A stretch of 64,000 nt of DNA from an uncultured Anaerolineae bacterium. Lineage in GTDB: Bacteria; Chloroflexota; Anaerolineae; Aggregatilineales; Phototrophicaceae. Position 1 is the stretch's first letter, and each line of letters opens with the position of its first letter. Positions 22,297-30,068 of this stretch are shown here, one piece after another. The translations under genes and the position numbers were made by a program. A model generated the notes under the pieces. It made no database searches. It worked only from the letters and a program-made list of their open reading frames with translations, and was not told the DNA's origin. Where the stretch lies: the NCBI GenBank assembly GCA_937922795.1, contig CALAJK010000010.1, positions 1-64,000 on the forward strand. The letters run 5' to 3'.

Positions 22297-23157
22297 CTAC
22301 GCCAGACGGCTGGCCAGCTCGTCCAGGTTCGAACGGACGCTGCCGTCTACCACCCGGTCGCCGGCGCGCACGATCAAGCCGCCCAGAATCCGCGGGTCTA
22401 CCAAGAACGTCACCTCGTCAGCGCCGATCTCTTGCTTCACTTTCTGCTGCTCAGCCTCGCTCAGCGGCATAGCGCTGACCACTTCGACCTGGCCGGAGAG
22501 CTTCCGCGCGGCTTCCGGCACTTTGGCGAAGAAGTCGTCAATCAGCGCCTGCTGACGCTGGGCGTCCAGCGACTCGCCGATCAGACGCTGGGCGACCGCG
22601 ATCGAGATGGCCGCCACCTGCCCGCGCAGGTCAGCCAACTGCTGGTCGCGTTCGGCAGTGGCCGCCGCCCGCGCCTCGGCGCGAATCTTCTCGGCTTCCG
22701 CGCGCGCCTCCGCTTCGATCTGCTTGGCGACCTCATCGGCGCGGCTGCGCGCCTCTTCGATGATCTTGGCCACGTCAGCGCGCGAGCTGGCCAAGATGCG
22801 CTCCGCCTCAGCCTCAGCGTTGCGCCGGGCATTGGCCGCCACCGCTGCGTCTTCCAGCCCTTTTTGAATCTTCGCCGCGCGCGAGTCCAGCAGGTTCACC
22901 AGCGGCCGCCACAAAAACACACCCAACAGCGTGGCGATCAGCAGAAAGTTGATGATCTGCGCGATCAGAAAGCCGGCGTTGATGCCCAGCGGCGTCAGCG
23001 GGCTGACCGCCGCCTCGGCGGCCGCTTCCCCTTCGACGGCCGCCGCTTCAGCCGCGCCCGCTTCGCCCTCCTGCGCCAGCGCCGCCTGGCCGATCAGGAA
23101 GGAAGCCAGCAGCGCCGCCACCAGCAGCAGCCTCCAGAGACTTGACTTGTTCAACAT
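22297..23157 (-). CDS. ATP synthase F0 subunit b fused to the C-terminal part of subunit delta
   Basis: A 286-residue protein. Residues 1-28 look like a cleavable signal or extra membrane segment, followed by an Ala/Glu-rich linker (29-52). Residues 55-90 are the b-subunit membrane helix, and 90-215 a long charged coiled coil (peripheral stalk). Residues 222-286 match only the C-terminal domain of delta/OSCP (VEVVSAMPLSEAEQ then DPRILGGLIVRAGDRVVDGSV). The N-terminal delta domain that binds the top of F1 is absent. It follows atpE in the normal order. Mycobacterial b-delta fusions keep a full delta; this one does not. Confidence 0.85.
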   Translation of the reverse strand: MLNKSSLWRLLLVAALLASFLIGQAALAQEGEAGAAEAAAVEGEAAAEAAVSPLTPLGINAGFLIAQIINFLLIATLLGVFLWRPLVNLLDSRAAKIQKGLEDAAVAANARRNAEAEAERILASSRADVAKIIEEARSRADEVAKQIEAEARAEAEKIRAEARAAATAERDQQLADLRGQVAAISIAVAQRLIGESLDAQRQQALIDDFFAKVPEAARKLSGQVEVVSAMPLSEAEQQKVKQEIGADEVTFLVDPRILGGLIVRAGDRVVDGSVRSNLDELASRLA

Positions 23158-23484: not shown

Positions 23485-24774
23485 TTAAGCGTGTTCTTCG
23501 TGATGCTCTTCGTCGCCGTGATGGCCTTCCATCGCCTGCGCCGAGAATACGATGGTCAGCACCGCGAACACGAACGCCTGAATGCTGGTGATGATGACCT
23601 CCAGCCCCAGGAAAATCACCGGCAGGATCAGCGAGATCAGGAAGGACATCACCGCCAGCAGGATGCCGCCGGCGAACATGTTGCCGAAAAGACGGAAGGC
23701 CAGGCTGATGATCTTACCCAGTTCCGAGATGATCTCCAGCAAACCGACGATGAAGTCAATCGCCCCCAGCGGCTTCTTGCCCAGGCTGCCCAGCGCCCGC
23801 AGGTTGATGAACTTCTGGAAATAGTTCGGCCCTTGGGCGGCGACGCCGAAAACCTGAATGGCGACGAAGGCCACCAGCGCCAGACCGATCGTCAGGTTCA
23901 GATCAGTAGTCGCGCCGCGCACATACGGCGTGATCACCTGGAGATACGGCACGACGCCCTGCTCCAGCGCGTCGGCTGACAGGCCGATCGGCGCGTGCGG
24001 CCACAGCGCTTCCGTGGCCTCTTTGCGCAGCGCGTTGATCTGGTCGTCGCGCTCGGCGCCGGTGACGCCCTGGGCGTCCATCGCCGCGATCAGCGCCTGC
24101 TCTTCCTCGCGCAGCGTCTTGGCTGCCGCCTTCAGCGCCTCTTTGTCCGGCTTGGCGATCTTGCCCTCTTTGTACTCTTCGCAGTGGTGGTAATCTTCTT
24201 CCGTGGCTGGATAACCAGTGAACAGCGGGCTGGGCACGTAGAGCTGGTTGCCCAGCACCGGGTTGCCCGTGGTGACAGTGATGCCGATTTCCGGCGCGGA
24301 GTGGCCGGCGCAGTGCAGCACGCCGACCGTTTCAACGCCGGGGAACAGCTTCATCCAGTTGGCGACCAGCAGAAACAGGAAGATGCTGGCGGCCAGCGGG
24401 AACAGCCAGTTGCGCGCCAGCGGTTTGGCGCCGGCGAAGTTCTTCGTCTGCCCGTAGATGAAATCGCCGATCAGCTCCAGGAAGGATTGGAACCGGCCGG
24501 GCACTTCTTTCGTCCAGCCCTTGGAGACGCGCCAGCCGACGGCGATCAGGATCAGGACGATGATGCTGGCTAACAGCGTGGCGGTGAAGGTGTTCGTCCA
24601 CATGAAGCTTTCGCTCGGCCAGCCTTCTTTGTAAGGCTCGCCGGGGACGACGATCACCGGCAGCGTGGCCGCTGACCCCGCGCTCGGCAGCACGCCGAAC
24701 GTGATGACGCTGCACACCACCAAAAATCCGATCAGGCCGCCGAAGATGAGTAAACCGCGTGTGGTCGCGTTCAT
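23485..24774 (-). CDS. atpB: ATP synthase F0 subunit a (with large insertion)
   Basis: A 429-residue membrane protein of the proton channel, far above the usual 230-300. The core is standard: ISLAFRLFGNMFAGG holds the essential arginine (R361) facing subunit c. Residues 150-280 form a long soluble insertion between early helices, containing an Ala/Glu/Lys-rich helical stretch (205-255). The C-terminus ends in a His/Glu-rich tail (GHHGDEEHHEEHA). The insertion is in frame with normal codon use, so it is not an assembly error. Confidence 0.93.
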   Translation of the reverse strand: MNATTRGLLIFGGLIGFLVVCSVITFGVLPSAGSAATLPVIVVPGEPYKEGWPSESFMWTNTFTATLLASIIVLILIAVGWRVSKGWTKEVPGRFQSFLELIGDFIYGQTKNFAGAKPLARNWLFPLAASIFLFLLVANWMKLFPGVETVGVLHCAGHSAPEIGITVTTGNPVLGNQLYVPSPLFTGYPATEEDYHHCEEYKEGKIAKPDKEALKAAAKTLREEEQALIAAMDAQGVTGAERDDQINALRKEATEALWPHAPIGLSADALEQGVVPYLQVITPYVRGATTDLNLTIGLALVAFVAIQVFGVAAQGPNYFQKFINLRALGSLGKKPLGAIDFIVGLLEIISELGKIISLAFRLFGNMFAGGILLAVMSFLISLILPVIFLGLEVIITSIQAFVFAVLTIVFSAQAMEGHHGDEEHHEEHA

Positions 24775-24822: not shown

Positions 24823-25107
24823 TCATCCCTCCTTTGCTGCCGACGTATCCGGGCGCGACACTGTTCGCGCTGCGGGGACGATGCGGCTCACCAGCTTGAC
24901 CGCCACCCGCACCATAACCCACAAACTCACTGGAACGCTGGCCAGCAGCAGGATGATGGTGAACAGCCCGCGCACACCCAACCGCGCATCCAGCCACAAT
25001 CCGATCAGCAGCGCGGCGATGACCAGCAAGATCGTCGCGCAGCCGGTCAATCCGGCCGTCGCCGCGTAGGATAGGTTGCGCACGCGCGGCGGGATGCCCC
25101 CGGCCAT
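24823..25107 (-). CDS. AtpI/AtpZ-like F0 assembly protein
   Basis: A 94-residue membrane protein with two hydrophobic helices (about residues 17-40 and 48-72) separated by a short loop, GLWLDARLGVRG. The WLD-GxxG pattern is typical of small AtpI/AtpZ proteins placed first in atp operons and thought to assist c-ring assembly or magnesium supply. The start is the ATG at 25107, about 20 bases after the predicted transcription start; a TTG one codon earlier is possible. Confidence 0.75.
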   Translation of the reverse strand: MAGGIPPRVRNLSYAATAGLTGCATILLVIAALLIGLWLDARLGVRGLFTIILLLASVPVSLWVMVRVAVKLVSRIVPAARTVSRPDTSAAKEG

Positions 25108-25132
25108 CAAACGGCCGCCCCAGCGTTGGCGA

Positions 25133-26693: not shown

Positions 26694-28415
26694 TTAAGCA
26701 CCCCCTCCCAGAATGGCGATGACCGGTCGCAGGCCGGCCTCAATCATCGGCGCCATGATGATGGGGTAGACCCCCAGGATGATGAGCGGCGCCCCCAGCA
26801 GGAACAAAATGATGCGGTCGGTGATGGTGATATCGGTCACGTCGCTGTAACGCTGCTCGTTGAACTCCCCGAAGAACACCTGGCTGGTGACGCGCAGCAC
26901 GTAAGCGGCAGTGATGACGATGCCCAGCGCCGCCAGCACCACGATGATCGAGTAGTAGTTGGTCAGCGTGAAACCGCCGATCTGCAGCGCCACGTTGGGC
27001 GAGGCGTTCCACATGCCGACGAAGATCGGGAACTCGGCGATGAACCCGCTGAGGCCGGGCATGCCCATGCTGGTGAGGCCGCCGATGATGAAAGCCACCG
27101 CGACCCAGGGCATCCGTTTGACGAACCCGCCCAGGCTGGGGATGTCGCGGGTATGCGCCCGGTCATACACCATGCCGACGCAGCCGAAGAACAGCGCCGT
27201 CATCGCGCCGTGGCTGAACATTTGCAGGCCGGCCCCGGTCATGCCGATGATGTTCATCGAAGCCCAACCCATGCTCACCAGCCCCATATGGCTGACCGAC
27301 GAGAAGCCGATGACGTACTTGAAATCGCGCTGACGGAAGGCGATGAACGCCCCGTAAACTACATTGATGAGCGTCAGGAATACGATCCAGGGCAGATGCG
27401 TCTGCGCCCCCTCCGGCATGAGCTGCACGCCCGCCCGCAGCGCTGCATACGCGCCCAGCTTCATCAGCACGCCGGCGTGGATCATGGAGACGGCCGTCGG
27501 CGCAGCCACGTGGCCATCCGGCGACCAGTTGTGGAACGGGAACACGCCCGCCAGCACACCGAAGCCGATGAACACGAACGGGAACCACAGCTTGGCGAAG
27601 GTGAGCGTCTCGACGCCGGCGTAGCCCGCCACGTCGAAAGCGCCGTTCTCCGCCGCCAGCATCAACTGCGTCATATCAAAGCTGAAGGGGCGGGCGTTCT
27701 CCGCCAGCAGCCCGGACGCTTTGGCCGCCTCAAATACGGCTGCGCCCTCGTTGGTGAAGTAATTGCTGGCCACCAGCACCATAGCGATCACGCCGACCAG
27801 GGCGATGACCGAGCCGATGAGGATGTACAGCGTCAGCTTCATCGCCGCGTATTCGCGCAGCTTCACCCATCCCCAGGTGGCGATGAGCAGATACATCGGG
27901 AAGATGGCGAGTTCGTAGAAGAAGAACAGCACGAACATGTCAATGGCCACGAACACGCCGTAGACGCCGGCCACCAGCAGCATGAAGAACGCCATGAATT
28001 CGCGGGTGCGGTCTTCGATGCGCCACGAGATCAGCACGCCGGCCACCGCCACCATGCCGGTCAGCAGCACCATCGGCGCGTTCAAGCCGTCTACGCCCAG
28101 GTGGTAGCTGATGCCCAAGCTGTCCAGCCAGGGCACTTTCTCTTCGAACGCCAGCCCATCCTTGAACATCTGGGTGGCCGGGTTGGCCAAGCCGGCGGCG
28201 TCGATCGCGGCTTGGTTGGTGTTCACCTGGCCGACCAAGTTGTTGTAGCCGAAGTACACCGCCCCCGACAGCACTAGCACGATCACCGCGGCAGTGATCG
28301 AGATGCCCCGAATCAGGTCGCGCTTGTCGCTGTCGATCAGCAGCAGGATGACGGCCGCTGCGATGGGCGTGAAGATGATGACGCTCAGGATTGGGAACAT
28401 AAATGGTTCGGTCAT
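26694..28415 (-). CDS. nuoM: NADH-quinone oxidoreductase subunit M, divergent second copy
   Basis: A 573-residue antiporter-like subunit. E168 in FFYELAIFPMYLL matches the conserved helix-5 glutamate, and K319 in GVLMKLGAYA is kept. In the region FGVLAGVFPFHNWSPDGH the position of the helix-7 channel lysine is L288. Residues 60-95 and 215-265 form longer loops than in the other copy. It belongs to the NuoM clade with the WSPDGH signature, not to a recent duplicate of 28491-30068. It follows that gene by 75 bases and precedes nuoN. Confidence 0.93.
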   Translation of the reverse strand: MTEPFMFPILSVIIFTPIAAAVILLLIDSDKRDLIRGISITAAVIVLVLSGAVYFGYNNLVGQVNTNQAAIDAAGLANPATQMFKDGLAFEEKVPWLDSLGISYHLGVDGLNAPMVLLTGMVAVAGVLISWRIEDRTREFMAFFMLLVAGVYGVFVAIDMFVLFFFYELAIFPMYLLIATWGWVKLREYAAMKLTLYILIGSVIALVGVIAMVLVASNYFTNEGAAVFEAAKASGLLAENARPFSFDMTQLMLAAENGAFDVAGYAGVETLTFAKLWFPFVFIGFGVLAGVFPFHNWSPDGHVAAPTAVSMIHAGVLMKLGAYAALRAGVQLMPEGAQTHLPWIVFLTLINVVYGAFIAFRQRDFKYVIGFSSVSHMGLVSMGWASMNIIGMTGAGLQMFSHGAMTALFFGCVGMVYDRAHTRDIPSLGGFVKRMPWVAVAFIIGGLTSMGMPGLSGFIAEFPIFVGMWNASPNVALQIGGFTLTNYYSIIVVLAALGIVITAAYVLRVTSQVFFGEFNEQRYSDVTDITITDRIILFLLGAPLIILGVYPIIMAPMIEAGLRPVIAILGGGA

Positions 28416-28490: not shown

Positions 28491-30068
28491 CTACCCACCC
28501 AAAATCCGCAGCACCGTATCATTGATGACCGGCAGGATCCAGTTCGGCACCACGCCGGTGATCAGCATCAGCACCAGCAGCGGCGCGATCGCCACCACCT
28601 CGCGCACCTCGATCTCTAGGTGGTAATCGCGCCACTTCAGGTTGAACGGCCCGTGCAGCACGGCGCGGATGCCCTTCAGGATGTAGCCGCCGGTGAACAG
28701 CAGGCCGAGCATGGCGATGACCGTCAACCCAGTGAACACCGGCCACGACCCGCGCACCACCAAAAACTCGCTGATGAACCCGTTCAGCCCCGGCAGCCCC
28801 AGGCTGGCCATGCTGGTGAACACGAAGATCGTGCCGTAGATCGGCGCTTTCACCCAGAACCCGCCGTACTCGCGCAGATCGCGGGTGTGGGTTTTGTGGT
28901 AGATCGCGCCGGCGAGCAAGAACATAGCCGCCGAACTGAGGCCGTGGTTGAACATCTGCAGCACCGCGCCGTTGGTCGCCAGGATGGCGCTCTCCAGGTG
29001 TTGGCCGGTCGCGTCCAGCCAGTTCTGGCCGTAGGCCAGCGCCGCCACCGCCAACCCCATGGCCACGAAGCCCATGTGGTTGACCGAACTGTAGGCCACC
29101 AGCCGCTTGATGTCGTTCTGTCCCAACGCGGCGAAAGCCCCCAGCACGATGCCCAGCATCGCCAGGAAGGCGAAGATGCCGGCCCAATTGGTCTGGATCA
29201 CGCCCAGGATGTTGACATCCGCGATCCACACGTCGGGAAAGAAGGGGATCACCAGCCGCAGGAAGCCATACGCGCCCAGCTTGAGCATGACGCCGGCCAG
29301 CAGCATCGAGCCGGCCGTCGGGGCTTCGCCGTGGGCGTCCGGCAGCCAGGTGTGGAACGGCCACACCGGCACTTTGATGCAGAAGGCGACGAAGAAGCCG
29401 ATGAACGCCCAGGCTTTCACCGCTTCGATGCCAATGCCCAGGAATGTGCCGTTTTCGCCGGTGAAGGTCGGCCAGATCTGGGTGAGCATCTGGATGTCGA
29501 ACGTCCCGGCCGTCCAGCCGATCAACTGGGTGGCCAGCAGCATGCCCAGCGAGCCGCCGATCGAGTAGATCATGAACTTGGTGGCGGCGTACTTGCGGTT
29601 CGGCCCGCCCCACTGGTCAATGATGAAGTACATCGGCACCAGGCTGAGCTCGTAGAACAGGAAGAAGATCATCAAGTCGAGCGCCACGAACACGCCCAGC
29701 AGGCCGGTCTCGAAGAACAGCAGCAGCGCCATGTGCATGTTGATGCGCTCTTCGATCTCAAAGCTGATCAGGATGGCCAGCGGCGTCAGGATGCCGGTCA
29801 GCAGCACCATCGTCGCGCTGACGCCGTCAATCCCCACGTGCCACGAGGCGCCGATCAGCGGGAACCAGGGCGTGTTCACCACCATCTGATAGCCAGCCGC
29901 CGCCCGGTCGTAGCTGAAGAAGACGGCGATGCACAGCGCGCCGATGATCGTGGCCAGCGCCAGCGCCCCCCAGCGCGCCACGGCGCGGGGCAGCAGCAGC
30001 ACGATGACCGCGCTGAGCGCCGGGGCGATCACCAGAAACGTCAGGATGTCTATGCCGAAGATTGCCAT
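28491..30068 (-). CDS. nuoM: NADH-quinone oxidoreductase subunit M, canonical copy
   Basis: A 525-residue antiporter-like subunit with the standard channel residues: E140 in FFLFYELSLVPMYF and K232 in FCIKVPVWPFHTWLPDAHGEAPTAGS, plus the helix-8 lysine in GVMLKLGAYG. It lies between nuoL (21-base gap) and the divergent nuoM. It probably forms the usual M position; the order of the two M subunits in the assembled arm cannot be read from the sequence. Confidence 0.96.
   Translation of the reverse strand: MAIFGIDILTFLVIAPALSAVIVLLLPRAVARWGALALATIIGALCIAVFFSYDRAAAGYQMVVNTPWFPLIGASWHVGIDGVSATMVLLTGILTPLAILISFEIEERINMHMALLLFFETGLLGVFVALDLMIFFLFYELSLVPMYFIIDQWGGPNRKYAATKFMIYSIGGSLGMLLATQLIGWTAGTFDIQMLTQIWPTFTGENGTFLGIGIEAVKAWAFIGFFVAFCIKVPVWPFHTWLPDAHGEAPTAGSMLLAGVMLKLGAYGFLRLVIPFFPDVWIADVNILGVIQTNWAGIFAFLAMLGIVLGAFAALGQNDIKRLVAYSSVNHMGFVAMGLAVAALAYGQNWLDATGQHLESAILATNGAVLQMFNHGLSSAAMFLLAGAIYHKTHTRDLREYGGFWVKAPIYGTIFVFTSMASLGLPGLNGFISEFLVVRGSWPVFTGLTVIAMLGLLFTGGYILKGIRAVLHGPFNLKWRDYHLEIEVREVVAIAPLLVLMLITGVVPNWILPVINDTVLRILGG

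Follow-up and report, generated by a model that had tools for sequence, protein, structure and literature searches.

F-type ATP synthases have long been taken to possess one peripheral stalk, one subunit a and a delta subunit that caps F1. The window analysed here, a stretch of 64,000 nucleotides from an uncultured Anaerolineae bacterium, contains an F0 gene cluster in which subunit b runs straight into the C-terminal piece of delta only. This fusion protein, referred to below as b-deltaC, raises the question of how such a stalk is attached to F1 and whether anything takes the place of the rest of delta.

The b-deltaC gene and the F0 cluster

The reading frame of b-deltaC is intact from ATG to stop on the minus strand, and its 286 aa product matches two Pfam families above their curated cut-offs: ATP-synt_B (PF00430) at residues 64-193 (E 2.2e-22) and OSCP, the delta family (PF00213), at residues 222-285, which correspond to positions 103-172 of the 172 in the profile (E 1.4e-13). 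An AlphaFold2 model built on an input alignment of 81 sequences (mean pLDDT 81) predicts a long b helix (61-194) and a short helix (199-211), followed at residues 223-285 by strand-helix-strand-strand-strand-helix, which is the order of a delta C-domain. The C-terminal fragment modelled alone (mean pLDDT 83) fits solved delta/OSCP C-domains with Z of 8-10 (maximum 10.2) and rmsd mostly of 1.3-1.8 A over 65-70 residues; against FliH and V-ATPase subunit E the Z is about 6.5, in a range where chance likeness is possible, with the FliH/SctL entry 5b0o giving a middling score (Z 6.5, rmsd 3.2, 83 residues). The initial annotation, which had described b fused to the C-terminal piece of delta alone, is therefore borne out by both profiles and by the fold, and the delta match on which it hinged is present.

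The same annotation remarked on a signal-like segment before the b helix, and this too is recovered: residues 4-29 are predicted to be helical and end as signal peptides typically do, and a hydrophobic stretch ahead of the b membrane helix occurs in 17 of the 81 aligned homologues, chiefly the nearest relatives (16 without L173, whose short segment is doubtful). Judging from the sequence the signal peptide may be cleaved, and the Ala/Glu-rich linker behind it is expected to lie outside the membrane.

The gene order in the window is nuo genes, a putative AtpI-like gene labelled by resemblance, a, c, b-deltaC and a Mur-ligase-like gene, the last of these standing next past b-deltaC with no F1 gene there (Table 1). 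Subunit a has an apparent long insert after its LFPGVET region, and is 429-475 aa long in the close relatives L083-L086. The nuo cluster that adjoins the F0 genes has, in translations read by eye, two consecutive NuoM-like genes (26694-28415 and 28491-30068).

Table 1. Features of the F0 cluster in the window
Feature	Position	Strand	Basis
b-deltaC fusion protein (AtpF + AtpH C-terminal domain), 286 aa	22297..23157	-	PF00430, PF00213, AlphaFold2
Predicted signal peptide, residues about 1-29	23071..23157	-	predicted helix 4-29 and hydrophobic stretch in close homologues
Ala/Glu-rich low-confidence linker, residues 30-56	22990..23070	-	pLDDT <50 at residues 30-51; composition
b membrane helix and coiled coil, residues 57-212	22522..22989	-	PF00430 64-193; helices 61-194, 199-211
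delta C-terminal domain, residues 222-285	22303..22494	-	PF00213 match and fold match to delta/OSCP C-domains
Subunit c (atpE), 76 aa	23184..23414	-	ORF; reference finding c in related operons
Subunit a (atpB), 429 aa, unusually long	23485..24774	-	ORF; reference finding a in related operons
Small putative AtpI-like membrane protein, first in F0 cluster	24823..25110	-	ORF; same place in L083, L086

Distribution of the fusion in the Chloroflexota

As the window belongs to a fragmented MAG (G000; 85% complete, 127 contigs), a chimeric contig, a frame error or a spurious delta match might be thought to lie behind b-deltaC. This is extremely improbable, given that the same fusion, 233-325 aa in length, is present at every one of the 80 loci, all from other assemblies, recovered by a scan of named genomes. 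Their titles are nearly all Chloroflexota and mostly Anaerolineae, and they include an isolate, Longilinea arvoryzae KOME-1 (locus L182), whose genome (G363) has one OSCP match, confined to the C-domain. Within the order of the window, moreover, a weak C-terminal delta match above cut-off is found in 56 of 61 genomes, none of them exceeding 71.5 bits.

The b-deltaC fusion is part of a class-wide pattern. In a sample of 120 genomes of the class an OSCP match was found in 114 and no match in six. The matches in 54 of the 114 span the whole profile, scoring at least 94.6 bits and starting at position 18 or earlier; the other 60 are weaker (at most 75.7 bits) and lie in the C-terminal part, a set that consists partly of N-ATPase operons and that includes nominal starts at 12-18 in three genomes (G003, G073, G030) and at 32-60 in five more. 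Such early nominal starts (G003, G073, G035, G037, G067, G094, G114; G310, G324 and others) were attributed to the profile extending into the b coiled coil, because the reading frames lack the length to hold both b and a full delta; a profile of the delta N-domain, described below, gave no match below E 0.6 in the first seven of these genomes. In G030 the OSCP match (18-172) contains two internal TGA. Outside the class, in a phylum sample of 201 genomes (196 with a match), deltas are nearly all full length among the matches listed, and Chloroflexia-like deltas have a shorter N-domain.

Three states can be distinguished within the class. Where delta is full length, b, delta and alpha are adjacent in all 20 loci, within an operon a-c-b-delta-alpha-gamma-beta-epsilon that in some cases is ended by a contig edge, and they are likewise adjacent in the outgroup loci, gene order aside in L232. 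In ten genomes a C-domain-only delta stands as a gene of its own, 81-123 aa long in nine and 167 aa in one (L090), with alpha directly next in eight of the ten (not in G018 and G116); the nine loci with an unfused delta C-domain of 81-123 aa in the place of delta show that the C-domain alone is viable. Where the C-domain is fused to b, the F1 cluster is separate from a-c-b/deltaC in 17 of the 17 genomes in which both loci were examined, although in L190 the two are less than 12 kb apart, on opposite strands.

The window's closest relatives belong to this third state. Its genus mate G330 (94% complete) has a, c and b-deltaC at one site and alpha, gamma, beta and epsilon at another with a delta gene in neither, and the same split of F0 and F1 without a delta gene is found in G019, G055 and G083 of the same family and in G107 of the same order. 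Main-type alpha, gamma, beta and epsilon are thus encoded in the genus mate and in relatives from the family. In the G000 assembly itself F1 genes are absent, there being no match for gamma and a sole PF00006 match that is Rho.

The fate of the delta N-domain

A genome-wide profile search of G000 gave no second OSCP match at E<=10, so that the full-length delta elsewhere that would have spoken against the initial annotation did not appear, in line with the maximum of 71.5 bits for the order. Since G000 is 85% complete and its assembly is without F1 genes, the stronger evidence for absence of the N-domain comes from relatives. Eighteen full-length deltas from the class supplied their N-domains for a profile that was run on 63 genomes. 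This profile recovered all 21 full-delta genomes at E 1.5e-16 or better, none of the 21 having been used in the profile, and found no match below E 0.04 in any of the 42 C-domain-only genomes, G000 included; chance matches in control genomes reach E 0.01. Nor was an extra gene found in the F1 or F0 clusters of close relatives. The best reading is that the cap, the N-terminal domain of delta, has been lost and that the clamp, its C-domain, has become joined to b.

The interpretation first placed on the locus therefore survives in part. That the N-terminal bundle is missing is confirmed by the contrast between 0 of 42 and 21 of 21 genomes, and that the stalk must attach to F1 in an altered way is judged right, the N-domain being missing, whereas the suggested alternative of a separate gene supplying the N-domain finds no support in the profile search of 42 genomes or in the clusters of close relatives.

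A single b gene above cut-off is present in 40 of the 42 C-domain-only genomes, G000 among them, the exceptions being G073 with two fusions and G057 with a gene split by a contig end over two contigs. Because the b gene is single in these genomes, b-deltaC most likely pairs with itself. The two genes of G073 (L201, L202) lie on different contigs, and L201 is almost identical to its counterpart in G003; contamination or mixed strains may explain the pair.

An extension of alpha was considered as a substitute cap and rejected as a general replacement, as the extra length is an internal insert that is absent in the window's family. Roughly 47-53 residues long and placed behind alpha residue 308 (numbered as in L219), the insert occurs in 11 of the 17 fusion genomes and in 1 of the 19 with a full delta; its carriers are L067, L069, L071-L074, L076, L077, L081, L082 and L190, and also L203.

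Relationship to the N-ATPases

A protein with the layout of b-deltaC is known from another source, as the b subunit of N-ATPases (TIGR03321) likewise consists of a b coiled coil and a delta-like C-domain, with a separate delta absent. N-ATPases are described as having no delta and a longer b that resembles subunit E (PMC5706428; Dibrova 2010 cited there). It could be supposed, then, that the fusion derives from a laterally acquired N-ATPase. The N-ATPase b model of NCBIfam does match b-deltaC over residues 64-282 (E 4e-19), yet below cut-off (69.4 of 224.7 bits); the N-ATPase b proteins of the class also have a delta C-domain, the two that were tested matching PF00213 at E 5.9e-16 and 1.4e-15 (Pfam); and all seven N-type operons carry the label of b with a delta C-domain. 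Against such an origin, in the tree of b plus the delta C-domain the seven N-type proteins form one clade (100/100) that lies outside the clade of 27 fusions (98/99), and whole gammas score about 260-320 bits in main-type operons against about 120-205 in N-type or similar ones, apart from G115, which is intermediate at 236 bits, and some fragments that score lower. The fusion genomes are of the main F-type in gene order, c subunit and gamma, and the window differs from the N-ATPase operons of the class, which run beta, epsilon, small proteins, a, c, b, alpha, gamma. With a different operon order, a different c subunit and a separate clade in the tree, an N-ATPase ancestry for b-deltaC is very unlikely.

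N-ATPases are said always to accompany a main ATP synthase (PMC5706428). Contrary to this, the sole gamma and OSCP matches in four Anaerolineae genomes (G106, G082, G017 and G053, at L098, L099, L100 and L236) are of the N-ATPase type. In G027 two adjacent fragments of a second gamma gene (G027:C1:2348998-2349539) are possibly a decayed copy.

How many losses and fusions

The F1 tree (56 rows, LG+G4 without mixture) places the fusion genome G074 apart from the other 16, beside two stand-alone genomes, and its starred branches force two changes; fusions fall in two places on this tree and C-domain-only genes in four. In the tree of b plus the delta C-domain (76 rows but 231 columns only, LG+G4 without mixture), all 27 fusions, those of G074 and G048 included, fall in one starred clade (98/99). 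Either two fusion events, or one fusion plus a transfer of the F0 cluster, would account for this conflict between the trees. Loss of the N-domain requires four changes on the F1 tree, fewer if weaker forks are relaxed. Neither tree infers a root, and loss is the likely direction because a full delta is present in the outgroups and in roughly half of the class. Within the class, then, the step from a full delta to a joined b-delta protein seems to have happened.

Proposed docking of the stalk on F1

In the classical enzyme one alpha N-terminus contacts the C-region of delta and two contact its N-domain (PMC12229609). With the N-domain gone, docking must fall to the C-domain. We consider it probable that the cell's main F-type ATP synthase lacks the delta N-domain and uses b-deltaC as its peripheral stalk, the C-domain docking on the N-terminal helix of alpha. 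About 20 residues long, this helix is conserved in all three states, whether delta is full length, stands alone as a C-domain or is fused to b. A homodimer of b-deltaC would bring two delta C-domains to each stalk, and by analogy these may clamp the conserved alpha helix at the side of the F1 head rather than attach through a cap in the central dimple, much as FliH holds FliI and subunit E holds V1.

FliH/SctL and subunit E of V/A-ATPases resemble b-deltaC in combining a coiled coil and a delta-C-like domain in one chain. They are distant in sequence and belong to other machines; the likeness is one of layout and not of membership. V/A-ATPase subunit E pairs with G. FliH is a homodimer gripping the N-terminal helix of its ATPase subunit, as is proposed for b-deltaC, with one C-domain of the dimer binding the FliI N-terminal helix (2-21) and the other binding FliI-N (PMC9114704); its partner is a FliI-type homohexamer, whereas relatives of the window encode F-type alpha and beta instead.

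Mycobacteria have another b-delta fusion, which works with a second, separate b (PMC5709465), whereas genomes with b-deltaC are without a second b. Like b-deltaC it unites b and delta in a single chain of an F-type enzyme, although at about 445 aa it retains a full delta, whereas b-deltaC, at 233-325 aa, is without the N-domain, its match beginning at profile position 103.

Gamma tails and the central dimple

The end of gamma lies near the top of F1, and in place of the cap an unrelated element could fill the dimple; in the window's family the gamma C-terminal tail is the leading candidate. In five genomes of the family, the genus mate G330 among them, this tail is 126-154 residues long and contains a helix-hairpin-helix domain. 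Tails of more than 15 residues past the conserved end motif occur, in raw counts uncorrected for relatedness, in 7 of 17 fusion genomes and in 3 of the 8 with a stand-alone C-domain, against 0 of 23 gammas from full-delta or outgroup genomes, this last figure leaving out eight more such gammas without the motif, which by eye end within a few residues. Gamma is nevertheless part of the rotor and hence unable to replace a stator cap, in ten of the 17 fusion genomes the tail is short, at 6-14 residues, and a long tail may merely use the space freed by loss of the cap. Replacement of the cap in this manner is accordingly improbable; the tails fit an open dimple, and we take them as a hint of one.

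Every helix-hairpin-helix tail seen comes from a genome that lacks the delta N-domain. The tail matches PF14520 at E 3.9e-8 in L063 (above cut-off) and 3.6e-5 in L064 (just below), and the long-tailed gammas are L063 5689-7038, L064 6360-7643, L065 2226-3494, L265 2138-3409 and L267 5115-6440.

The number of stalks

Chloroflexus aurantiacus belongs to the same phylum as the window's source, and its delta is the closest solved sequence to the delta domain of b-deltaC. Its F-ATP synthase (PDB 9itj-9itu) is reportedly the work of Zhang et al. in PNAS in 2025. The PDB entries contain 12 chains of delta in six entries, 72 of b in 18, 36 of a in 18 and six of gamma in six, and by these chain counts, the measure of stalk number used here, there are two delta, four b and two a per gamma, which amounts to two stalks. 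This delta is a separate protein of 157 aa with a short N-domain, and its relatives (L228-L230) carry the genes in one operon. The N-domain is modelled in chain S of 9itj (147 residues) but not in the two chains of 9itk (69-70 residues). As the short N-domain is kept, two stalks do not strictly require its loss, and that loss may not be what brings them about.

A link between the N-domain and stalk number has been drawn in an engineered enzyme. The delta N-domain occupies the central dimple and so restricts the stalks to one, and removal of delta residues 2-104 in Bacillus PS3, with the C-domain tied to alpha, gave up to three stalks together with three a subunits (PMC12229609; PDB 9jc1), with an H+/ATP of 5.8 against 3.0 and about half the proton motive force (pmf) needed (PMC12229609). 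As in b-deltaC the N-domain is gone and the C-domain is kept and fused to a neighbour, and the b stalk docks via the C-domain, as is proposed for b-deltaC. In PS3 the C-domain was placed on alpha by design, owing to the authors' concern that it might otherwise fail to hold F1 (PMC12229609), whereas in b-deltaC it is found naturally on b; the available text of PMC12229609 names fusions to alpha, not to b. Its authors regard natural deltaDeltaN-alpha fusions, as in Acidaminococcus fermentans, as likely multi-stalk enzymes.

The b-deltaC enzyme is known from genes alone, and sequence cannot count stalks. It comes close to an even chance that there is a single stalk, in which the N-domain has been lost, a b-deltaC dimer sits on one alpha with one a, and the fusion serves as a covalent link between b and delta. 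This would be the simplest change, FliH-like docking requires nothing more, and b is single copy, as in many bacteria; set against it, the lost domain is the named limiter of stalk number in PMC12229609, and the solved enzyme of the same phylum has, by chain count, two stalks. We hold it to be possible, somewhat short of an even chance, that the main ATP synthase in a large share of the Anaerolineae has two or three stalks, with a separate subunit a for each. A threefold axis freed of the cap would present three equal docking sites on F1, which could receive two or three stalks, and the extra a subunits would make each ATP cost more protons and permit synthesis at low proton motive force. Under this proposal, loss of the delta cap in several lineages would have made several stalks possible, and fusion of the delta clamp to b would have stabilised the arrangement. 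A shift of a-c-b away from the F1 genes would have done so too, by allowing more stalk and subunit a to be made per F1, and the split of F0 and F1 genes fits such unequal production, although it is only suggestive.

Implications for the Anaerolineae

What is new here is a main F-type synthase in which a delta without its N-domain is fused to b, and which is conserved across much of the class; no published description of a b-deltaC fusion in Chloroflexota or Anaerolineae was found in the literature covered, mostly papers outside subscription. It has been proposed that b and delta stem from the splitting of one peripheral stalk protein (PMC5706428), and the apparent passage in this class from a full delta to a joined b-delta would be the reverse of that step.

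The Chloroflexus entries, like the engineered PS3 enzyme, already break the rule of one stalk. The Anaerolineae add a natural, class-wide series, from a full delta, through a C-domain alone in the place of delta, to a C-domain fused to b, and the link of b-deltaC to stalk number is a strong and testable one. Through this series, what determines stalk number, and with it how many protons an ATP costs, can be tested directly in living bacteria, one of them in culture. If the extra a subunits are real, the H+/ATP of a large bacterial group would not be set by the c-ring alone, and if these enzymes do have several stalks, they would be natural enzymes with a raised H+/ATP for low proton motive force, akin to the kind recently engineered.
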